Below the pieces are notes generated by a model, which was not told the origin of the DNA, ran no database searches, and saw only the letters and a program-made list of their open reading frames with translations. Position numbers and translations under genes: made by a program. This document shows positions 24,660 to 37,012 of a stretch of 64,000 nucleotides of DNA, one piece after another. The stretch is from Limnochordaceae bacterium (GTDB taxonomy: Bacteria > Bacillota > Limnochordia > Limnochordales > Geochordaceae): contig JADBKR010000008.1 of the NCBI GenBank assembly GCA_014896295.1, positions 248,001-312,000 of the forward strand, read 5' to 3'. Each line of letters opens with the position of its first letter. Positions within the stretch are counted from its first letter, which is position 1.

Positions 24660-24691
24660 GCCCGGCGGAGCCGTGCCGCTAACCCCGAGCC

Positions 24692-24720
24692 TTGACTGCG
24701 CTCCGAGGCAACCGTATCAT
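24692..24720 (+). promoter_or_regulatory. Promoter of the tetR gene
   Basis: TTGACT (24692-24697), a 17-bp spacer and TATCAT (24715-24720), giving a start near 24727, immediately before the palindromic operator. Confidence 0.65.
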
Positions 24721-24727
24721 GCCCCCA

Positions 24728-24745
24728 AGACCGACCGGTTGGTCT
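24728..24745. promoter_or_regulatory. TetR-type operator (near-perfect 18-bp palindrome)
   Basis: AGACCGACCGGTTGGTCT is palindromic apart from one mismatched pair and has the ACCGACCGGTNGGT look of many TetR-family sites. It sits at the predicted transcription start of the adjacent tetR gene, which fits autorepression. Confidence 0.6.
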
Positions 24746-24753
24746 GTCGTCCT

Positions 24754-25394
24754 ATGCCACCTGCGATGTCGTCGCGACACAACGGCGAGGCCACCCGCCG
24801 GCGGCTGATCGACGCCGCTATCCGGGTCATCGCGCGCAAGGGTTACCACCAGGCCACGGTGGACGAGATCGTGGCCGAGTGCGGCAGCTCCAAGGGCGCG
24901 TTTTACTTTCACTTCGAGAGTAAGGACGCCCTTTTCGTCAACCTCCTGGAGGAGTTCGCCGGCCGGCTCGCCTCCGCCGTGGAGCAGGCCGTTCGCTCGT
25001 CGCCGGTGCCGGGGGCAGGGCGTGTCGAGGCCGCGGTGAAGGCGGCGCTCGAGCTCTTCGCCGCCCACGAGGAGCTCGCCCGGGTCTTCCTGGTGGAGGC
25101 CGTGGGGGTGAGTCCCGAACTCGAGGCCAGGCGCCGGGCCCTGGTCGACCGGTTCACGACGCTCATCCAGCTCTACCTCGAACAGGCCGCCCGCCGGCAC
25201 CCGCTGGCGGTCGTCGATACCCGCGTGGCCGCCAGCGCGGCACTCGGCGCCATCAACGAGGTGGTCGTCCAGTGGCTGAGCGCCCCCGCGGCCGGCCGCT
25301 CGCCGAGCTTGCGCCCGAGCTCGCACGCTTCGTCCTGCGGGGCGTGGGATGGCCCGAAGAACCCGTTTCCGTAACGGAGGTTCCCGGGCCATAG
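24754..25394 (+). CDS. TetR/AcrR-family transcriptional regulator, C-terminus frameshifted
   Basis: The N-terminal helix-turn-helix (TRRRLIDAAIRVIARKGYHQATVDEIVAECGSSKGAFYFHFESKDALF, residues ~15-62) is classical TetR. A ligand-binding helical domain follows. Near 25290-25300 the frame changes: unrepaired, it ends at 25374 with RSPSLRPSSHASSCG. Restoring one missing base in GCGGCCGGCCG gives PLAELAPELARFVLRGVGWPEEPVS, a normal TetR C-terminus, ending at TAG 25392-25394 (213 residues). The start could be ATG 24754 or 24766. The ligand is unknown; with the SDR nearby, acyl-CoA is one guess. Confidence 0.85.
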
Positions 25395-25546: not shown

Positions 25547-25575
25547 TTGACCGCCGCGCGGCAGGCGGATAGCAT
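25547..25575 (+). promoter_or_regulatory. Promoter of the purine operon
   Basis: TTGACC (25547-25552) and TAGCAT (25570-25575) with a 17-bp spacer. The start would be near 25582, shortly upstream of the riboswitch. Confidence 0.6.
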
Positions 25576-25604
25576 GGGGATGTCTGGACATAGCTCAGGT
25601 TGCT

Positions 25605-25790
25605 GAGCGAGGGAAAGCGTGCCTAGGGTTCCGCGGGCGACAACGGCCCGGAGCTCGGCTCCGGCCGGCGGGCCTGCCCGGTCAGGTCCAAGCGGCACGG
25701 GCGCCCCATGGACGGGGCGGCTCTCCTCGGAGTCCACGGGAGCCGCCGGGCCCGTGAGGGCGCTACACCGGTGGGACAAAAGCCCAGGTG
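25605..25790 (+). ncRNA. ykkC-family riboswitch, probable PRPP class, before purE
   Basis: The leader carries the conserved ykkC-type blocks in order: GCCTAGGGTTCCGCG at 25621-25635, GGTCAGGTCCAAGCGGCACGG at about 25680-25700, and GGTGGGACAAAAGCCCAGG at about 25770-25788. Variable GC-rich arms lie between. Subtypes of this fold bind guanidine, ppGpp or PRPP. The PRPP class is the one found before de novo purine operons, so PRPP is inferred. The 3' block overlaps the left arm of the terminator, so ligand binding should prevent terminator formation and switch the operon on when PRPP is plentiful. Confidence 0.75.
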
Positions 25791-25840
25791 GGTAGGTTTC
25801 ACCTCGCCGTGGTGAAGCACCCGCCTGGGCTCTGCTTTTT
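25781..25840 (+). terminator. Intrinsic terminator (expression platform) between riboswitch and purE
   Basis: AGCCCAGG-TGGGT-AGGTTTCACC pairs with GGTGAAGCACCC-GCCTGGGCT around a short loop, followed by CTGCTTTTT. The left arm shares AAAAGCCC with the riboswitch 3' end, the usual mutually exclusive layout. Confidence 0.85.
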
Positions 25841-25882
25841 GGAGCAGGGCCCGGGCGGCTTCGGGCGGGGGAGAGACGAGCG

Positions 25883-26416
25883 ATGCAGGGCGAGCCGCGC
25901 CGCACGGCGCGCGTCGGGCTCATCATGGGCAGCGACTCCGACTGGCCCGTGATGAAGGCGGCCTGGGACCAGCTCCACGCACTGGGGATCGAGGTGGAGC
26001 TGGCCGTGGCCTCCGCGCACCGTACTCCCGAGCGGGCCATGACCTGGGCCCGCACCGCCGCGGAGCGCGGCCTCCGGGTGATCATCGCGGCGGCTGGCGG
26101 CGCCGCCCATCTTCCCGGCGTCATGGCAGCCTGGACGACCCTTCCGGTCATCGGCGTGCCCATCGCCGCCTCCCTCGAGGGGCTCGACGCCCTGCTGAGC
26201 ATCGCCCAGATGCCGCCCGGCGTGCCCGTCGCCGCGGTGGGCATCAACGGCGCCCGCAACGCCGCCCTGCTCGCCGCCGAGATCCTGGCCCTCTCCGACC
26301 CGGAGTTGACCGGCCGCCTGCACGAGCTGCGCCGCCGCCAGGCCGACCAGGTAGCCGAGCGGGAACAGCGCTTGCTCCAGACCGTCGAGCACTCTCCGGA
26401 GGGGGAACGTCCATGA
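25883..26416 (+). CDS. purE: N5-carboxyaminoimidazole ribonucleotide mutase
   Basis: Moves the carboxyl of N5-CAIR to give [46 protein letters not shown] holds the signature GSDSDW and [33 protein letters not shown] and [32 protein letters not shown] complete the fold. It has 177 residues and starts at ATG 25883 behind GGGGGAGAG. It opens the purine operon. The partner purK, normally required by this class of PurE, is not in the operon. It overlaps purB as ATGA. Confidence 0.96.
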
Positions 26417-27819
26417 TCGCCCGCTACACCCGGCCGGCCATGGCCGCCTTGTGGTCCCAGGAGAACCAGTACCGCCGGTGGCTCGAGGTCGAGCTCCTGG
26501 CCGCCGAAGCCTGGGCCGAACTGGGCCGCGTCCCCCGCGACGCCGCCCGCCGTCTGCGGGAGCGAGCCACGTTCCGCGTCGAGCGCATCCGAGAGCTCGA
26601 GCAGGTCAACGACCACGAACTCATCGCGTTCTTGTCGGCGGTCTCCGAGACGGTGGGCGACGACGCCCGCTACCTGCACCTGGGGCTCACGTCGTCCGAC
26701 GTGATGGACACCGCCCTGGCCTCGCTCGCCGCCGAAGCGATGGGGCACGTCATCGCCGGCGTCGAGGAGCTCCGCCAGGCCCTGGCCTCGGAGGCGATCC
26801 GTTACCGTCGCACCCCCATGATCGGCCGCACCCACGGGGTGCACGCCGAGCCGATCACCTTCGGCCTCAAGCTGGCCCGCTGGTGGGACCAGCTCGGGCG
26901 CGACCTGGAACGCCTGCTCCGAGCTCGTGACGCGATCGCTGTCGGCAAGCTGTCCGGCGCGGTCGGCACCTTCGCCCACGTCGACCCCTTCGTCGAGGCG
27001 TACGTTTGCCAGCGGCTCGGGCTGCGCCCCGCCCCCATCTCGAGCCAGGTCGTCTCCCGGGACCGCCACGCGGAGGCGGCCGCCGCCCTGGCCATCCTCG
27101 GGGCGAGCCTGGAGGAGTTTGCCACCGAGATCCGGCTGATGCAGCAGACCGAGGTCGGGGAGCTCGAAGAGCCGTTCCCTCCGGGCCAGAGGGGCTCGTC
27201 GGCGATGCCCCACAAGCGCAACCCCATGCGCAGCGAGCGCATCGCGGGCCTCGCCCGGGTGCTGCGGGGCTACGCCCTGGTCGCCATGGAAAACGTGGCG
27301 CTGTGGCACGAGCGGGACATCTCGCACAGCTCTACCGAGCGGATCTGGGTCGTGGACGCCACCACCCTCGCCGACTACGTGGTGGCGCTGTTGACCCGCG
27401 TCGTGAGGGGGTGGCGGGTGTACGAGGCCCGCATGAAGGCCAACCTCGAGGCCACCGGGGGGCTCGTCTTCTCCGAACGGGTGCTGCTGGCGCTGGTCGA
27501 CGCCGGCATGAGCCGGGAGGAGGCGTACCGCCGGGTGCAGGCTCACGCCATGGCCGCCCGGGACGAGGCCGCAGCGGGCGTGCTGGGCGCCACCTCCTTC
27601 AAGGCACGCGTGCTTTCCGACCCGGATCTGGCCGCGGTCGCCGGCCGGGAGCGGCTGGAGCGGGCCTTCGAACTGGAGCCTTTCCTCAGCAAGGTCGACG
27701 CCATCTTCGAGCGGCTCGAAATCGAGCGCCTCACGCAAGAGAACCCCGCACGAGCCCGGCAGAGCCAGGGGGCCGTGCAGGGCATCCAGGACGCCGGGAG
27801 CGGCGCGCCCGGGCGGTGA
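26413..27819 (+). CDS. purB: Adenylosuccinate lyase
   Basis: Splits SAICAR and adenylosuccinate, releasing fumarate. Of the fumarase/aspartase superfamily, with HLGLTSSDVMDTA near residue 92, GRTHGVHAEPITFG near 137 (catalytic His) and the signature loop GSSAMPHKRNPMRSE near 260, which supplies the catalytic Ser. Length is 468 residues with the usual N-terminal [27 protein letters not shown]. Translationally coupled to purE. Confidence 0.96.
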   Translation: MIARYTRPAMAALWSQENQYRRWLEVELLAAEAWAELGRVPRDAARRLRERATFRVERIRELEQVNDHELIAFLSAVSETVGDDARYLHLGLTSSDVMDTALASLAAEAMGHVIAGVEELRQALASEAIRYRRTPMIGRTHGVHAEPITFGLKLARWWDQLGRDLERLLRARDAIAVGKLSGAVGTFAHVDPFVEAYVCQRLGLRPAPISSQVVSRDRHAEAAAALAILGASLEEFATEIRLMQQTEVGELEEPFPPGQRGSSAMPHKRNPMRSERIAGLARVLRGYALVAMENVALWHERDISHSSTERIWVVDATTLADYVVALLTRVVRGWRVYEARMKANLEATGGLVFSERVLLALVDAGMSREEAYRRVQAHAMAARDEAAAGVLGATSFKARVLSDPDLAAVAGRERLERAFELEPFLSKVDAIFERLEIERLTQENPARARQSQGAVQGIQDAGSGAPGR

Positions 27820-27947
27820 CGGCGCCGGACGGGGGGATGAGGCCGTGAGCATCTCATCGTTGGGGCAGGGACACGGGTCGGGCCAGGGGCACCCCTCTGG
27901 CCCGGGCCACGGCGGGACAGGCATGAGGAGCGCCCACCGCCGGGTGG

Positions 27948-28733
27948 ATGATCCCGCCGGGGCCGGCGGTGCGGGGAGAGCGGCTGCACCGCGGCAAGGT
28001 GAAGGGGGTCTACGCGGTCGCCGGGTACCCCGCGCTGCGCCTGATCGACTTCACCGACGAGGCGACCGCTTTCGACGGCACCAAGCGGGCGGTCATCGCC
28101 GGCAAGGGAGAGGCCAACGCCCGCATCTCGGCGGCATTCTTCCAGGCCCTCGAACGCTCCGGTGTCCCCACCCACTTCGTACGCCTCGAGTCGCCGGCGG
28201 TCATGCTGGTGCGGGCCGTCGAGATCATCCCGCTCGAGGTGGTGGTACGAAACCGCGTGGCGGGCAGCCTCGCCAAACGCCTCGGCCTCGCCGAGGGCAC
28301 GCCGCTTCGCCGCCCCGTGTGGGAGCTCTTTTACAAGAGCGACCCGCTGCACGACCCGTGGGTCAACGCTCACCACGCCGAGGCCCTGGGATGGGCCAGC
28401 GCCGACGAACTGGCCGAGATGGAGCGGCTCGCCTTCGCCGCCAACCAGGCCATGCGGGACCTGGCCCTCCGGGCGGGCCTGGAACTCATCGACTTCAAGC
28501 TGGAGATGGGCCGGCCACTGGGGCCTCAGGGCGAACGCACCGGCGAAGGGCTGCTCGTCGCCGACGAGATCTCGCCGGACACGTGCCGGTTTTGGGACGT
28601 CGAGACCGGCGAGCGCAAGGACAAGGATCGCTTCCGCCGGGACCTGGGGCAGGTGGAGGAGACCTACGCCGAGGTGCTCCGGCGCATAGAGGAGGCCTTC
28701 CGGTGGCTCGATATACCGTCTTCGTCCACGTGA
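27948..28733 (+). CDS. purC: SAICAR synthetase
   Basis: Couples CAIR with aspartate using ATP. HRGKVKGVYAV at residue 14 is the nucleotide-binding start, then FTDEATAFDGTKRAVIAGKG, IIPLEVVVRNRVAGSLAKRLG near 95 and LIDFKLEMG near 180, with DEISPDTCRFWDVETGERKDKDRFRRDLG near 205. It has 261 residues. The 128 bp between purB and purC hold only Gly/Pro-rich low-complexity sequence and are probably untranslated. purS begins inside the purC end. Confidence 0.95.
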   Translation: MIPPGPAVRGERLHRGKVKGVYAVAGYPALRLIDFTDEATAFDGTKRAVIAGKGEANARISAAFFQALERSGVPTHFVRLESPAVMLVRAVEIIPLEVVVRNRVAGSLAKRLGLAEGTPLRRPVWELFYKSDPLHDPWVNAHHAEALGWASADELAEMERLAFAANQAMRDLALRAGLELIDFKLEMGRPLGPQGERTGEGLLVADEISPDTCRFWDVETGERKDKDRFRRDLGQVEETYAEVLRRIEEAFRWLDIPSSST

Positions 28734-28987
28734 TGCCGCGCCGGGGCGTGCTGGACCCGCCCGGGGAGGCCGCCAGGGCGGCTCTCTCCGCCCTCGGCTT
28801 CGAGGAGGTGCGGGAGGTGCGCATCGGGCGGCGCATCGCGGTCGAGGTGGAGGCCGCCGACCCGTCGGAAGCCGAGGCCCGGGTGCGCCAGATGGCCGAG
28901 CGGCTCCTGGCCAACCCGGTCATCGAAGAGTTCGAGCTGGCGGCGGGCGAGAGCCCGGAGAGAGCCAACGGGAGCGCCCGGCGATGA
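28703..28987 (+). CDS. purS: FGAM synthase subunit PurS
   Basis: Small structural subunit of the three-part phosphoribosylformylglycinamidine synthase (PurS/PurQ/PurL). The 94 residues begin at GTG 28703 behind AGGAGG with ARYTVFVHVMPRRGVLDPPGEAARAALSALGFEEVREVRIGRRIAVEVEA, matching the family. It overlaps purC by 31 bp and purQ by ATGA. Confidence 0.93.
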   Translation: MARYTVFVHVMPRRGVLDPPGEAARAALSALGFEEVREVRIGRRIAVEVEAADPSEAEARVRQMAERLLANPVIEEFELAAGESPERANGSARR

Positions 28988-29766
28988 GCGCCGCCGTCGT
29001 GGGCGTGGTGACGTTCCCCGGGACCAACTGCGACCGCGACGTCGTCCACGCCATCAACCGGGCCGCCGGGGAGCGGGCGGGCTTGCGGGCGGTGCCGGTC
29101 TGGTACGAGGAGACGGACTTGAGCGGCATCGACGCCGTCGTACTGCCGGGGGGCTTTTCGTACGGGGATTACCTGCGCTCCGGCGCCATCGCCGCCCTGG
29201 CGCCGGTGATGCGGGCGGTGGCCGGGCGAGCCCGGCAGGGGATGCCGGTGCTCGGGATCTGCAACGGCTTCCAGATCCTGCTGGAGGCCGGGCTGCTGCC
29301 GGGGGCCATGCGGCGCAACCGCACCCTCTCTTTCATCTGCCGGGCGGTGCCCGTGCGGGTCGAGTCGGTGGAAACGCCCTTTACCCGGGCGTACCGTAAA
29401 GGCCAGGTGCTGTGGCTGCCCATCGCCCACTACGAGGGTAACTACTTCGCCTGGCCGGAGGAGCTCGGGGCCATCGAGGCAGGCGACGAGGCGGCGCCCG
29501 GCCGGGTGGTGCTCCGCTACTCGGGGCCCGACGGACAGGACGCTCGGATCTTCTCGGAATACAACCCCAATGGGGCGGCGGGGGCCATTGCGGCGCTCGC
29601 CAACCCGGCGGGCAACGTGGTCGGGATGATGCCCCACCCGGAGCGGGCATCGGAGGAGTGGCTCGGGAGCACCGACGGGCTCGGGGTGTGGCTGTCGCTG
29701 GGTCGGTGGCTCGCGGAGCGCCGGGCTGCGGCCGGCGTCCCTGCCGGGAGAGGAGGCGCGCCGTGA
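28984..29766 (+). CDS. purQ: FGAM synthase subunit PurQ (glutaminase)
   Basis: Class I glutamine amidotransferase supplying ammonia to Pur[21 protein letters not shown] at the N-terminus, [19 protein letters not shown] near 58, catalytic Cys in [19 protein letters not shown] near 92, and His-x-Glu in [19 protein letters not shown] near 230. It has 260 residues and sits between purS and purL with overlapping stops and starts. Confidence 0.96.
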
Positions 29767-32125
29767 GCGTCGAGACCGTCGTCCCGGTGGACTGGCCTTC
29801 CGACCCGCCCGCCCCGGCCATCGAGGCGGAGAGCCGGTGGAGGGCGCTCGGGCTGACCGACGGCGAGTGGCGTCTCATCCGGGAGACCCTCGGCCGCGCC
29901 CCCACGTGGACCGAGCTCGGCATGTTTTCGGTGGCGTGGTCGGAGCACTGCGCTTACAAGCACTCTCGAAGGGCTCTCGCCCGGCTGCCTGCGGAGGGCG
30001 AGCGGTTGCTGATGGGACCCGGCGAGAGCGCCGGCGTGCTCGACATCGGCGGCGGCTGGGCGCTGGCGGTACGCCTCGAGTCCCACAACCATCCCTCTTA
30101 CGTGGAGCCGTACCAGGGAGCTGCCACGGGGGTGGGCGGCATCGTGCGGGACGTGCTGGCGGCGGGGGCGCGGCCCGTGGCCCTGCTCGACTCGCTGCGC
30201 TTCGGGCTGCCCGGCAAGCCTCGCAACCGCTACCTCTTCCGGGAGGTGGTGGCCGGCATCGCCGGGTACGGCAACGCCATCGGCGTGCCGACCGTGGGCG
30301 GCGAGGTGGCCTTCCACGAAAGCTACGACACCAACCCGCTGGTCAACGTGATGTGCGTGGGGCTGGTGCGGGCCGACCGGATCGCCCGGGCGCGGGCCGA
30401 TGGCCCCGGCAACCGGGTCTACCTCGTCGGTGCCCGCACCGGGCGCGACGGCATCCACGGCGCGGGGCTGCTGGCATCGCGGACGTTCCGGGCCGGCGAA
30501 GGGGGCGAGCAGCGGCCCCGGGTCCAGGTGGGCGACCCGTTCACCGAGAAGCTCCTCATCGAGGCGTGCCTGGAGGCGCTGGAGACGGGCGCCGTCGTGG
30601 GCATCCAGGACCTCGGCGCCGCCGGCATCACGGCTGCCTCGTCGGAGCTCGCGGCTCGGGCGGGCACGGGCATCGATCTGGACCTCGACCGGGTGCCCCG
30701 GCGGGAAGAGGGCATGACCCCGTTCGAGCTCATGTTGTCGGAGTCTCAGGAACGCATGATGCTGGTCGTCCAGGCCGGGCGGGAAGCCGAGGTCGAACGG
30801 ATCTTCCGGCGCTACCGGCTGGAGGCGGCCCCGATCGGGGTGGTCGACGCCTCGGGCCGGCTGCGGGTGCGCTGCGAAGGCCGGCTCGTCGCCGACCTGC
30901 CGGCCCGCTTCCTCGCCGACGGAGCACCTCGCTACGACGTGCCGCAGCCTGTGCGCCCGCCGGGAACGCCAACGCCCTCCTCCGCTTCCCTGCCTCCCGG
31001 CGATGCGCCGTCGACCCAACCGCCGTCGACCAGACCGCCGGTGGCAACCGCCGCCGGCACGGCAGGACGCGTGCTCGGCCGGCGCCTGCGAGAGGCGGCG
31101 GCGTCGGTCGCCGGGGGCGCCCGGGCATGGATTTACGAGCAGTTCGACCACATGGTGGGGCTCAGGACGGTGCTGCCGCCGGGCCATGACGCCGCGGTGC
31201 TACGGGTGCTGCCCGACGAGGCGGTGCCCGGAGGGCCGCCGGCCGGGCCCGCCGGGATGGTCGCGCTGAGCCTGGACGGGGCGGAGTGGCTCGCCGGGTG
31301 GAGCCCGTATGCAGCCGGGTGCGAGGCGGTGCTGGAGGGGGCCCGCAACGTGGCGGCGGTGGGCGCCCGGCCCGCCGGCATCACCAACGGCCTCAACCTG
31401 GGCAGCCCGGAGCGCCCCGAGGTCATGCAGGCGCTGGCCGACGTCGTGCAGGGCATGGCCGACGCCTGCAGGGCGCTCGGCATCCCCGTCACGGGCGGCA
31501 ACGTGTCGCTTTACAACGAGACGCAGGATCCCGCCGGCACGGCGGGGGCCCGGGCCATCCTCCCCACTCCCATCGTCGGGATGGTGGGGCTGGTCGAGGC
31601 CCCCCGGCCCGTGCCTTCCTTCTTCCAACGCCCGGGGGACGTGGTGGTGCTCGTCGGACGCCCGGCCTTCCTCGAGGCCCCCGAACAGTGGAGCGTCGAC
31701 TTCGACCTGGAGCGGCGGGCCATCGAGCTGGTGGTGCGAGCGGCCCGGCAAGGGCTCATGCGGTCGTGCCACGACCTGGGGCAGGGCGGATCGCCGAGGC
31801 GCTGGCCGAGGCGGCCCTGGGCGGGAAGCCCGGAGCCGACGGGTGCGAGGTGACGCTGCCCTTGCTTGCGCCCTCCCTCGAAGCGCTCCTCTTCGGCAGG
31901 GGCGGCCCGGCCTGGGTGGCGAGCGTCGCGCCCGGCGACGTGCAGCCCCTGCTGGCCCTGGCCGAGGAGCTCGGGCCTCCTCGCGTCCCCGTCCGCGTCC
32001 TCGGAACGGTGGTGCCGCAGCGCCTTCGCCTGGCGGTCGAGGGAGCCGGTACCGTGCTGGACGAACCGGTCGAGCCCCTTCGCCGCGCGTGGAGACAGGC
32101 CCTGGAGGAGGCAGCCCGTCCATGA
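29763..32125 (+). CDS. purL: FGAM synthase subunit PurL, frameshifted near the end
   Basis: ATP-dependent amidation of FGAR to [17 protein letters not shown] near residue 58, [26 protein letters not shown] near 105, [22 protein letters not shown] near 180, [17 protein letters not shown] near 280 and NVSLYNETQ near 580 identify the short (Gram-positive type) PurL. A Pro/Ser/Thr-rich linker at about residues 400-435 separates the halves. At about 31788 the frame shifts: GGGCAGGGCGGATCGCC lacks one base before [12 protein letters not shown]. The repaired product has 787 residues and ends at 32125, overlapping purF. Confidence 0.94.
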
Positions 32126-33727
32126 GGGTTACGGCGGCGGCTCCAGAGCGTAAGGCGATGGCGGCATCTTCGCACCAGGCGGGTGCATACCGCGAGGCCC
32201 ACGACGAGTGCGGCGTGGTGGGGGTTTACGGGCACCCCGAGGCGGCCTCCGTGGTGCGCTGGGCGCTTCTCGCCCTGCAGCACCGCGGCCAGGAGAGTGC
32301 CGGGATCGCCTCCCTCGACCGCCACGGCCGCGTAGGCATCCACCGGGGCATGGGGCTCGTGGCCGACGTGATCCAGCCCGAGCACCTGGCCCGGCTCGCA
32401 GGGCACGCGGCCATCGGCCACGTGCGCTACTCGACCACCGGTGCGTCGCGCCTCGAAAACGCGCAGCCCATCCTCACCCGCTTTCGCGGGCGGTTCCTGG
32501 CGGTGGCCCACAACGGCAACTTCGTCAACGCGGTGGCGCTGCGCGGCCGCCTCGAGGAAGAGGGCTCCATCTTCCAGACCACCACCGACACCGAGGTCGT
32601 CGCCCACCTGGTGGCCCGCCACGGCGGCACCACCCGGCAGGCGCTCCCCTGGGTGTTGCGGCAGATCGCCGGAGCGTGGGCCCTGGTCTTCCTCGACCCC
32701 GACGGCGTCATCGCCGCCCGGGATCCCCTGGGCATCCGCCCGTTGAGCCTGGGCCTCGTCCCGTACTCCGACGAGCAGGCGCCCGCCTGGATCGTGGCTT
32801 CGGAGACGTGCGCGCTCGATTCGGTCGGGGCCACGGTCGTGCGGGAGGTCGAGCCGGGGGAGGTCGTGCACCTGGGGCCGGACGGCGTGCGCACCGTAGC
32901 CCGCATGGAGCTGCCGCCCGGCGCCCGGGGCACTCAGGCCGGCGGGGGGCTGTGCGCGTTCGAGGCCATCTATCTGGCCCGCCCCGACTCGGTGCTGTTC
33001 GACCAGAGCGTGCACGGGCTTCGCAAGGAGATGGGGCGGGCGCTCGCCCTGCGCCACCCGGCCGAGGCCGACCTGGTCACGGGCGTGCCCGACTCGAGCC
33101 TCTCGGCGGCGATGGGGTACGCCGGAGCAGCTGGGGCTCCCCTTCGAGATGGGGCTGATCCGCAACCGCTACATCGGCAGGACGTTCATCCAGCCCGGGC
33201 AGAGCGAACGGCGCCTGGCGGTGCACGCCAAGCTCAACGCGGTTCGCAAGGTGGTGGAAGGGCGGCGGGTGGTGCTGGTCGACGACTCCATCGTGCGCGG
33301 CACGACGGCCCGCCGTATCGTGGAACTGCTGCGCCGGGCGGGAGCGGCTCAGGTCCACGTGCGCATCGCCTCGCCGCCGTACCGGTTCCCGTGCCATTAC
33401 GGGGTCGACACCGCGCACAGGGGCGAACTCATCGCGGCAGAGCGCGACGTAGAGGCCGTCCGGGCGGCCATCGGGGCCGATAGCCTGGCGTTCTTGCCGC
33501 TGGAGACGATGCTCGAGGTCCTGAAAGGGCCGGCGTGCGTGGCCTGCTTCACGGGTGTCTACCCCGTGCCGGTGGAGGATCCGGCCGACAAGCTGGCGCT
33601 GGAGGCGCCGCTGGAGCGGGTGGAAGCGGGCGAGGAGACGGGCCTCGGGAAGGCAGGCTCCGCAACGGCCTGCGGAAAGGAGAGTGCCCGTGGGGCCGGA
33701 GGACGGGGCCATGGAGCGGCCTGCTGA
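32122..33727 (+). CDS. purF: Amidophosphoribosyltransferase, frameshifted
   Basis: Commits PRPP to purines by making phosphoribosylamine. A short propeptide precedes the Ntn-hydrolase Cys of DECGVVGVYG (near residue 31). HRGQESAGIAS, GHVRYSTTGASRLENAQP, AHNGNFVNA and GVPDSSLSAAMGYA follow. The PRPP loop VVLVDDSIVRGTTARR is in another frame. At 33124-33125 the reading GCCGGAGCAG for GCCGAGCAG adds one G; removal restores [26 protein letters not shown]. The repaired product has 534 residues. ATG 32122 overlaps the purL stop; ATG 32158 is possible. Confidence 0.94.
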
Positions 33728-34946
33728 GGGCGCTCCACACGAGGCGGCCGGGGGGCGCGAAGCGCCGGGCTACCGCGCCGCCGGTGTCGACCTCGAAGGG
33801 AAGCGGGCGCTCGTGCAGCGGCTCGCCCGGATCGCCCGAACCACACCGCAGGCCGGAGTGCTGCAGGGCATCGGCGGGTTTGCGGGGGCGCTGGCGCTGG
33901 GAGATGCGGCCGGCGCTTTCGAGGACCCGGTGCTGGTCGCCGGCGCCGACGGGGTGGGCACCAAGCTGGAGCTTCTGGTGAGGCTGGGCCGCCACCGGGT
34001 GGCCGGGGTCGACTGCGTGGCGATGTGCGTCAACGACGTGGTGGCGGCGGGCGGGCGTCCCCTCTTCTTTCTCGACTACCTCGCCATGGGCCGGCTCGAC
34101 CCGGAGGTGGCCTCGGAGGTCGTGGAGGGCGTCGCCGAAGGGTGCCGGGAAGCGGGGTGCACGTTGCTCGGCGGCGAGACGGCGGAGATGCCCGGGTTTT
34201 ACGGGCCGGGCATGTACGAGCTCGCCGGCTTTTGCGTGGGGGTGGCGGATCGGGCGGCCATCGAGCGGGGCATGATGGCCCGGCCCGGCGACGTGCTGGT
34301 GGGGCTGGGCTCGTCGGGCCTGCACTCCAACGGCTTCTCGCTCGTGCGCCGGATCCTGGAGCAAGCCGGGGCCGATCTGGGGGCGCCGGCGCCGTTCGGG
34401 CAGGGGCCGGGCGCGCCCCCGGGCACCAGCACGCTCCGGGAGCATGGCTCTCTCGGAGAGCGGAGCGTCCCACCCTCACCCGGCATCCCGCTGGGAGAGG
34501 CGTTGACCCAGCCCACCCGGATCTACGCCCGGGCAGCGCTCGCCATGGGGGCCGCCGTCGAGGTGCACGCGCTCGCCCACATCACGGGCGGGGGCCTGCC
34601 CGACAACCTGGCCCGGGTGTTGCCGGCCGGGACACGGGCGGTCGTGGAACGGGGGTCATGGCCGGAACCGGAGGTCTTCGGGTGGCTGGAAGAGACGGGG
34701 CGGCTCTCGGAGGCGGAGATGTTCCGGGTCTTCAACATGGGGCTCGGCATGGTGGCCGCGGTGGCGCCGGCCGACGCAGAGGCCGCCGTGGCGCTGGCGA
34801 CGGCGGCCGGGTATGCCGCCTGGGTCGTCGGGAGAGTCGAGGGGCCGGGGCTCGACCCGGCCACGACGCCGGCCAGGGGCATCCGGTTCACGGCCTCGGC
34901 CAAGCAGGCCCAAACCGGCGGGTGGGTCGAGATTGTCGACCGGTGA
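33690..34946 (+). CDS. purM: Phosphoribosylformylglycinamidine cyclo-ligase (AIR synthetase)
   Basis: Closes the imidazole ring. DGVGTKLELLVRLGRHRVAGVDCVAMCVNDVVAAGGRPLFFLDYLA (near residue 85) and GGETAEMPGFYGPGMYELAGFCVG near 165 are diagnostic, and ALAHITGGGLPDNLARVLP is near 290. Start GTG 33690 is chosen for its AAGGAGAG site 6 bases upstream; it overlaps the purF end by 38 bp. A Pro/Ser/Gly-rich insert of about 30 residues near residue 230-265 makes it longer (418) than the usual ~345. Confidence 0.94.
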   Translation: MGPEDGAMERPAEGAPHEAAGGREAPGYRAAGVDLEGKRALVQRLARIARTTPQAGVLQGIGGFAGALALGDAAGAFEDPVLVAGADGVGTKLELLVRLGRHRVAGVDCVAMCVNDVVAAGGRPLFFLDYLAMGRLDPEVASEVVEGVAEGCREAGCTLLGGETAEMPGFYGPGMYELAGFCVGVADRAAIERGMMARPGDVLVGLGSSGLHSNGFSLVRRILEQAGADLGAPAPFGQGPGAPPGTSTLREHGSLGERSVPPSPGIPLGEALTQPTRIYARAALAMGAAVEVHALAHITGGGLPDNLARVLPAGTRAVVERGSWPEPEVFGWLEETGRLSEAEMFRVFNMGLGMVAAVAPADAEAAVALATAAGYAAWVVGRVEGPGLDPATTPARGIRFTASAKQAQTGGWVEIVDR

Positions 34947-34956
34947 CGGGCCTGAC

Positions 34957-35658
34957 GTGACCGAGCACGTACCGGCACGGCCGGAGCCGCTGCAGCCGGT
35001 GGCGCTGGGGCGCAGGGCCACCGGGGCATCGCCGTTGCGGCTGGGCGTGCTCGCCTCCGGCCGGGGCACCAACCTGCAGGCCATCCTGGACGCGTGCGTC
35101 AACCGGGAGGTGCCGGCGCGGGTCGTCCTGGTCATCTCGGACAAGCCGCAGGCGCAGGCGCTCGAGCGGGCCCGGGCGGCAGGGGTGCTCGCCGAGTACC
35201 ACGACCCGCGGATCCACCCCGGCCGGGCCTCGTACGACCGCCACCTGGCCGACCGCCTCGAGGAGGCGGGCGTCGAGCTGGTCTGCCTGGCCGGCTTCAT
35301 GCGCATCCTGGGGAGTGCCTTCGTGGAGCGCTTCCGGCACCGCATCCTCAACATCCACCCGTCGCTGTTGCCGGCGTTCCCGGGCAAGGATGCCCAGCGC
35401 CAGGCGCTCGAGCACGGGGTGAAGGTGAGCGGCTGCACCGTGCACCTGGTGGACGAGGGGGTCGACACGGGCCCCATCGTACTGCAGGCGGCCGTGCCGG
35501 TGCTCGAAGGCGACACCGAGGAGAGCCTCGCCGAGCGTATCTTGCAGCACGAACACCGGCTCTACGTCGAAGCCATCCGGCTCTATGCCGCCGGGCGGCT
35601 GCAGCTCGAGGGGCGGCGGGTGCGCATCGTGCCCGGCGGCGCGGGTCAGGGCACTTAG
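34957..35658 (+). CDS. purN: Phosphoribosylglycinamide formyltransferase
   Basis: Formyl-THF-dependent third step of purine synthesis. LGVLASGRGTNLQAILDACVNREVPARVVLVISDKPQAQALERAR, VELVCLAGFMRILGSAFVERFRHRILNIHPSLLPAFPGKDAQRQALEHGVKVSGCTVHLVDEGVDTGPIVLQAAVPV contains the catalytic Asn-His-Asp set (NIHPSLLP, DTGPI). The first ~28 residues before LRLGVLAS are extra; GTG 34957 is used, and a later start is possible. 233 residues. Confidence 0.94.
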   Translation: MTEHVPARPEPLQPVALGRRATGASPLRLGVLASGRGTNLQAILDACVNREVPARVVLVISDKPQAQALERARAAGVLAEYHDPRIHPGRASYDRHLADRLEEAGVELVCLAGFMRILGSAFVERFRHRILNIHPSLLPAFPGKDAQRQALEHGVKVSGCTVHLVDEGVDTGPIVLQAAVPVLEGDTEESLAERILQHEHRLYVEAIRLYAAGRLQLEGRRVRIVPGGAGQGT

Positions 35659-35683
35659 GGGACGCAGGTCACGGAGCCCGGCG

Positions 35684-37012
35684 ATGGGGGCATCGGTCGT
35701 GAAAGGCACGGCGGTCGTGGTCGGCGGGGGCGGGCGCGAGCACGCGTTGGCCTGGGCGCTCGAGCGAAGCGGGCAGTTTGCCAGGGTCTACGCGGCGCCG
35801 GGCAACGCCGGCACGCCTCACCCGGTGCCGCTGCCGGCGGGGGCGGCCGAGGCCGCAGAGGCGCTCGTGACCTTCGCCCGGGAGCACGACACCAGGCTCG
35901 TGGTCGTCGGGCCCGAGGCGCCGCTGGCGGCGGGCCTGGCCGACCGTCTGCGGGAGGCCGGCGTGCCGGTGGTGGGGCCGTCGAGGTCGGCCGCCCGCAT
36001 CGAGTCGTCGAAGGCGTTCGCCAAGACGGTCATGGCACGGGCGGGCGTGCCCACGGCTCCTTTTCGCATCTTCTCCGACCCCGAGCGGGCCGTCGCGTAC
36101 GTGCGCAAAGCCGGGCGGCCGCTGGTGGTGAAGGCCGACGGGCTGGCGGCCGGCAAAGGGGCCATCGTCTGCGACACGCCCCGCGAGGCCGAACAGGCCG
36201 TGCGATCCCTCATGGTCCAACGAACCCTCGGAGACGCCGGCGGCGTCGTGGTCGTCGAGGAGCGCCTCGAGGGCCGGGAACTCTCCGTGATGATCCTGAC
36301 CGACGGCGAGCGGGCGCTGCTGCTCCCGCCGGCCCGGGACCACAAGCGCCTGCTCGACGGCGACCGAGGCCCCAACACGGGTGGGATGGGAGCAGTCGCT
36401 CCCGTCGAAGGAGAAACCGGCCTGCAGGACGTCCTGCAGCGCATCTTCTACCCGGTGCTCCGCGAGCTGGCCGCGGCCGGGTCTCCCTTCCGGGGTGTGC
36501 TGTACGCGGGATTGATGTTGACCCCCGAGGGGCCGCAGGTGCTGGAGTTCAACTGCCGGGCAGGTGACCCGGAAACCCAGGCGCAGCTGCCGCTCCTGGA
36601 CGCGCAGCGGCTCACCGAGGCCCTGCTGGCCGTCGCCGGCGTCCCCGGCGCCACCCTACCGGACGACCCGGGCTGGCTGTGGCGGGGCCCGCTCGCCGGT
36701 CGCGAGCGCCGCCACGCCGTGTGCGTCGTGGCAGCGTCGGCGGGCTATCCGGAGCGGCCACGAACCGGAGACCTCGTGGAAGGGTTGGAAGAGGCCGCCG
36801 GAGAGTTCGAAGCCGCAGATGACGGCACCCTCGTCTTCCACGCGGCCACCCGCCGGAGGGCCGGCGGGCGGGTAGAGACGGCCGGCGGGCGGGTCTTGAA
36901 CGTCGTCGGGCTCGGCGCGACGTGGGACGAGGCGCGCCGGCGCGCCTACGACCGGCTGAGCCGCATCTCGTTCGATGGAATGCAGTACCGGTCGGACATC
37001 GGCCTGCTATGA
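35684..37012 (+). CDS. purD: Phosphoribosylamine-glycine ligase
   Basis: ATP-grasp enzyme joining glycine to phosphoribosylamine. VVVGGGGREHALAWALERS at the N-terminus, VVGPEAPLAAGLADRLREAG near 70, the ATP-grasp lysines in PLVVKADGLAAGKGAIVC near 145, RDHKRLLDGDRGPNTGGMGAVAPV near 220 and LEFNCRAGDPETQAQLPLL near 290. It has 442 residues and closes the operon. The stem CTGCCG..CGGCAG at 37064-37092 lies about 50 bases downstream but has no T-run. Confidence 0.95.
   Translation: MGASVVKGTAVVVGGGGREHALAWALERSGQFARVYAAPGNAGTPHPVPLPAGAAEAAEALVTFAREHDTRLVVVGPEAPLAAGLADRLREAGVPVVGPSRSAARIESSKAFAKTVMARAGVPTAPFRIFSDPERAVAYVRKAGRPLVVKADGLAAGKGAIVCDTPREAEQAVRSLMVQRTLGDAGGVVVVEERLEGRELSVMILTDGERALLLPPARDHKRLLDGDRGPNTGGMGAVAPVEGETGLQDVLQRIFYPVLRELAAAGSPFRGVLYAGLMLTPEGPQVLEFNCRAGDPETQAQLPLLDAQRLTEALLAVAGVPGATLPDDPGWLWRGPLAGRERRHAVCVVAASAGYPERPRTGDLVEGLEEAAGEFEAADDGTLVFHAATRRRAGGRVETAGGRVLNVVGLGATWDEARRRAYDRLSRISFDGMQYRSDIGLL

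Follow-up and report, generated by a model that had tools for sequence, protein, structure and literature searches.

Which ligand is sensed by the leader RNA that precedes the purine operon of this Limnochordaceae bacterium, and in which direction would it act on the genes behind it? The DNA analyzed here (the window) is a stretch of 64,000 nucleotides, and the leader occupies positions 25547–25882 of its forward strand. We conclude from sequence comparison that the leader is very probably a singlet PRPP (ykkC 2b) ON riboswitch acting by transcription antitermination, a known kind of element (Sherlock et al. 2018; Knappenberger et al. 2018).

Read 5' to 3', the leader is composed of a promoter, a 16-nt hairpin, an aptamer, a terminator, and a ribosome-binding site, in that order, followed by the start of purE at 25883. 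The promoter is sigma-70-like (25547–25575), with a -35 element TTGACC (25547–25552) and a -10 element TAGCAT (25570–25575) separated by a 17-nt spacer; a promoter-like pair of this kind is found once, compared with an expectation of 0.1 in shuffled sequences. The hairpin, which has a perfect stem (GCTCAG-GTTG-CTGAGC, 25593–25608), lies directly 5' of helix P0 of the ykkC-type aptamer, and the aptamer itself (25609–25805), recognized by a covariance-model match, comprises P0, P1, P1a/P1b, P2, and P3. It runs into an intrinsic terminator (25782–25840) that was identified by folding and has a hairpin of about -34 kcal/mol. A ribosome-binding site read from the sequence (GGGGGAGAG, 25867–25875) precedes purE, the first gene of the operon (25883–26416; TIGR01162, 203 bits). 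This layout agrees with the sequence-only reading of the locus that we followed up, which had placed three conserved blocks in order behind a promoter and had the terminator share the last of them: TAGGGTTCCG (25624–25633), GGTCCAAGCG (25685–25694), and GGGACAAAAGCCC (25773–25785) follow one another downstream of the promoter on the forward strand, and the 5' arm of the terminator begins inside GGGACAAAAGCCC, at its GCCC.

Rfam gives no match in the window at gathering thresholds. At a relaxed threshold, RF00442 (guanidine-I) is the only significant family, with 35.8 bits (E 7.6e-5) against a cut-off of 63; microRNA, RAGATH-10, and Proteo-phage-1 matches with E-values of 2 or more were taken as chance, as was a weak RF00442 match elsewhere in the genome (E 3.6). 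Separate models for PRPP and ppGpp switches seem to be missing from Rfam, as even PRPP-type relatives drew no such match. The leader, to which we assign a ligand here, goes unreported at the curated Rfam threshold and would at best be called guanidine-I there.

Relatives were gathered from 60 related genomes, from a pattern scan of named genomes in which position 96 was left free, and from the 25 genomes behind those matches. Model R1 (PRPP-type) comprises 23 loci preceding purine genes or purine-type permeases and does not include any member of the window's family; model R2 (ppGpp-type) comprises eight loci preceding ilvE, natA, or leuA-type genes, one of them without a gene assignment; and model R3 (guanidine-I-type) comprises seven loci that have the guanidine-I marker A at position 49 and lack P0; two of these, L149 and L150, lie ahead of proteins that by eye resemble small multidrug-resistance (SMR) transporters. 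One doubtful locus returned by the pattern search for ppGpp-type sequences was left out. Gene names among the relatives come from BLAST against references chosen for this analysis, and the reference labels for the permease, purC, purK, ilvE, natA, leuA, and some purL genes reflect a reading of the sequences rather than HMM results.

R1 matches positions 25609–25800 over its full length with 75.9 bits (E 1.5e-19 in the window), and across the 2.9-Mb genome this is its only match, with no second copy of the switch. Given that a model free of the window's family returns this score and a single match genome-wide, we do not regard the leader as a chance resemblance. The covariance scan that the sequence-only reading had proposed places the PRPP-type model first, with 75.9 bits for R1, 55.3 for R2, and 22.7 for R3; with models this small and E-values only approximate, the ranking, in which R1 leads R2 by 20.6, is based on bit scores. 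The seven held-out PRPP-type controls (L016, L018, L116, L120, L153, L158, and L160) all favor R1 over R2, the nine ppGpp-type loci, of which eight served for training, all favor R2 over R1, and guanidine-type loci score best with R3.

The fold behind this match is strongly supported by covariation among relatives. In the 23 relatives, 94.2% of the cells of a 31-pair structure that includes P0 are paired, compared with 78.9% after shuffling and no more than 50% in slid controls, and 122 cells are changed on both sides, compared with 36.6 in shuffles. In the window, the 5' strand of P0 (GAGGGAAA, 25609–25616) pairs with UUUC (25797–25800) and, past a bulged A, with CCUC (25802–25805). P1, P1a, and an enlarged P1b occupy 25618–25699, with P1 formed by 25618–25623 and 25694–25699, and the enlarged P2 arm, placed from the sequence and the R1 alignment, occupies 25700–25764. 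The ligand-pocket strand and P3 follow (25766–25787), with C75, A76, C77, and C78 at 25766–25769 and P3 formed by 25773–25775 and 25783–25785, and the 3' pocket strand and the 3' strand of P0 complete the aptamer (25788–25805), with G101 at 25792 and A103, G104, and G105 at 25794–25796. The residue numbers are those of the Thermoanaerobacter mathranii aptamer (PMC6031431), transferred through the conserved blocks rather than from that sequence itself and consistent at every residue named there. The window departs from its relatives in having a bulged A in P0 and in its P1b and P2, both of which carry long inserts; we ascribe its lower R1 score compared with relatives in its own family (75.9 versus 100 and 92.5 bits) to the long inserts. 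The folding energy of the leader region lies 3.1 SD below that of shuffles. Thermodynamic folding alone does not return the aptamer, since in the full-length optimum the terminator forms and P1 is mispaired. Such an optimum may be what is expected of a GC-rich riboswitch folded without ligand, and minimum-free-energy folding, uninformative at 74% GC, was dropped as proof of the aptamer.

Two positions distinguish the ykkC classes. Position 49 is an A in guanidine-I riboswitches and a pyrimidine in PRPP and ppGpp riboswitches, and position 96 is a G in >97% of PRPP switches and a non-G in ppGpp switches; in T. mathranii, the G96A change alone shifts PRPP/ppGpp specificity about 40,000-fold (PMC6031431; PMC5912903 for the two positions, PMC6031431 for the change). 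The window has C49 (25693, next to G48 at 25692) and G96 (25787), the latter in a long-range pair with C75 (25766), a combination that fits the PRPP class and neither of the other two. Among the relatives, position 96 is a G in loci preceding purB, purE, purC, purK, purL, or a purine-type permease, and an A or a gap in the six rows that precede ilvE; some position-49 letters in the table of relatives are wrong, where the pattern started at an upstream TAGG. Preference for PRPP over guanidine or ppGpp, which had been argued from the purine context, is supported by the top R1 score and, apart from gene context, by C49, G96, and P0.

A ppGpp riboswitch (ykkC 2a) would share the fold and the antitermination mechanism and would instead sense the alarmone of the stringent response. 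P0, C49, and most pocket residues are common to both classes, and R2 still gives 55.3 bits; however, G96 is present where the ilvE-linked relatives have an A or nothing, R1 scores well above R2, and the genes downstream serve purine synthesis rather than branched-chain amino acids, and we consider a ppGpp ligand very unlikely. If anything slightly less probable is that the leader binds another ykkC subtype 2 ligand (2c or 2d) or is a degenerate, nonbinding aptamer that leaves a constitutive attenuator. The subclass model comparison covered the PRPP, ppGpp, and guanidine-I types, and loss of function is compatible with a sequence taken alone, but the residues of the PRPP pocket are intact (A5, G6, C75, A76, C77, C78, A103, G104, and G105), and the core is kept in other genomes of the family despite diverged loops and flanks. 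Position 101, a G in the window and an A in T. mathranii, is conserved merely as a purine. A guanidine-I riboswitch, the name given by the only Rfam match, is extremely improbable given that this match falls under its cut-off and is nondiscriminating, since purine-linked relatives also match RF00442, and given that position 49 is C rather than A, that P0, absent from guanidine-I-type relatives, is present in the window as in the PRPP-type alignment, that R3 scores lowest, and that no guanidine-related gene lies downstream.

How a PRPP riboswitch at this site would act is suggested by the way in which its 3' end is shared. The 5' arm of the terminator (25782–25803), separated by a loop (25804–25810) from the 3' arm (25811–25830), forms a 20-bp stem followed by a U-rich tail that extends to 25840. 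This 5' arm overlaps the 3' strands of both P3 and P0, which makes the aptamer and the terminator mutually exclusive. A simple terminator scan of the region missed the 25782–25840 terminator, probably because its rules disallow a 2-nt bulge or the distance from the stem to the T run. We propose that, at low PRPP, 25782–25803 would pair with 25811–25830 and transcription would stop near 25840, at the U-rich tail. Accumulating PRPP would bind the pocket made by P3, P1a, and P0 and keep 25782–25803 in P3 and P0, so that the terminator would be blocked and RNA polymerase would read on into purE-B-C-S-Q-L-F-M-N-D. The leader itself shows the parts in this order and their conservation, the nucleotides specific to the class, and two structures that overlap; that PRPP binds, and that it turns the genes on, is inferred from characterized relatives. 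In one of these, the singlet PRPP switch that precedes purB of Heliobacterium modesticaldum, PRPP raises readthrough (T50 of 40–90 uM) and the switch works in vivo (PMC5912903).

Downstream of purE, the genes purB, purC, purS, purQ, purL, purF, purM, purN, and purD follow on the forward strand (26413–37012). The ten purine genes that had been expected behind the leader are thus all present, but they are not the whole pathway, with purH missing from the operon and located on another contig of the genome. From gene order and tight spacing, we infer that the ten genes share one transcript. A first reading of the open frames suggested a PurC–PurS fusion at 27845–28987, but purC proved to be in a different frame (27948–28733), and the fusion was discarded. 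Compared with another genome from its species (L198), in which purF is one open frame, both purL (29658–31853) and purF (32209–33727) have a one-base length difference that breaks the frame. These breaks are likely sequencing errors; if real, the strain would be unable to make purines de novo. Two one-base differences of the same kind from L198 occur in an upstream TetR-type gene (24673–25374). A search of the genome for the N-terminal domain of PurR found none at the cut-off (best 12.6 versus 24.6 bits), and given that no PurR-type repressor domain scores above it, the leader RNA may be a main regulator of the de novo synthesis of purines in this lineage.

The leader is conserved within the family. 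Over the region, L198 and the window are about 97% identical, and the leader itself contains no indel; two genomes of another genus of the family (L199 and L200) keep TAGCATGGG with a TTGAC-type -35 element, a hairpin of the form GCTCAGG(T/C)TGCTGAGC, the aptamer core, and the terminator 3' arm with its T run, whereas loops and flanks differ from those of the window. An R1 search of ten other genomes of the order gave no match. In three relatives at the level of the class (L014, L015, and L025), a guanine aptamer lies directly upstream of the PRPP-type aptamer, as in published tandems; the guanine aptamer model (RF00167) has no match in the window or the whole genome. The 25593–25608 hairpin occupies the place of the guanine aptamer in these tandem relatives, occurs once per genome in four genomes of the family, and always abuts the PRPP-type aptamer. 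Its 3' arm has two bases in common with a possible extension of P0, and it could therefore tune P0 formation. We consider it unlikely that the hairpin has become a third functional part of the switch in place of the guanine aptamer, whether by tuning P0 or by docking a second regulator.

Some further observations concern loci gathered with the relatives. Two Desulfosporosinus genomes (L167 and L186) have ppGpp-type ykkC RNAs without G96 upstream of a leuA/citramalate-synthase-like gene. Judged by the chosen references, PRPP-type aptamers with G96 at L068/L172, L175, and L181 precede genes outside purine synthesis, encoding lipoproteins that resemble substrate-binding proteins (L068 and L175) and an amidohydrolase-like protein (L181). 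PRPP-type aptamers are also present at L090/L180 and L092/L182, in a MAG labelled Chloroflexi, and L180 has a guanine-aptamer-like sequence upstream. The published PRPP set, of 257 examples, is described as Firmicutes, and the Chloroflexi-labelled aptamers mean either that the class ranges more widely or that the bin is mislabelled.

The window's lineage is not named in the accessible literature on PRPP riboswitches, and the leader can be placed among known systems as follows. Guanidine-I riboswitches (RF00442) share P1, P2, P3, and most conserved blocks with the window but have an A at position 49, no P0, and other gene contexts. ppGpp riboswitches (ykkC 2a) share the overall fold, P0, and the pyrimidine at 49 but lack the G at 96 and lie upstream of ilvE, natA, or leuA-type genes. 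The tandem guanine–PRPP riboswitch, an IMPLY gate, has the same PRPP aptamer and a shared terminator, with a guanine aptamer where the window has a short hairpin. The T. mathranii PRPP aptamer, known from a crystal structure (Knappenberger et al. 2018, PMC6031431), agrees with the window at A5, G6, G48, C49, C75, A76, C77, C78, G96, A103, G104, and G105; the window differs in having G rather than A at 101 and longer arms. The H. modesticaldum purB singlet (Sherlock et al. 2018, PMC5912903) shares the core with P0, the pyrimidine at 49, G96, a P3 strand shared with the terminator, and, by analogy for the window, a role as an ON switch ahead of purine genes, whereas the window's leader precedes purE of a ten-gene operon and has long P1b/P2 inserts and the invariant 16-nt hairpin. 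The new points are minor (the long P1b and P2 arms, the invariant hairpin at the place of the guanine aptamer, and a genome in which no PurR-type repressor was found); the long arms indicate that the PRPP aptamer can accommodate extended GC-rich inserts there. Set beside these systems, the leader leaves the understanding of the class unchanged and represents ordinary biology in a new GC-rich host.
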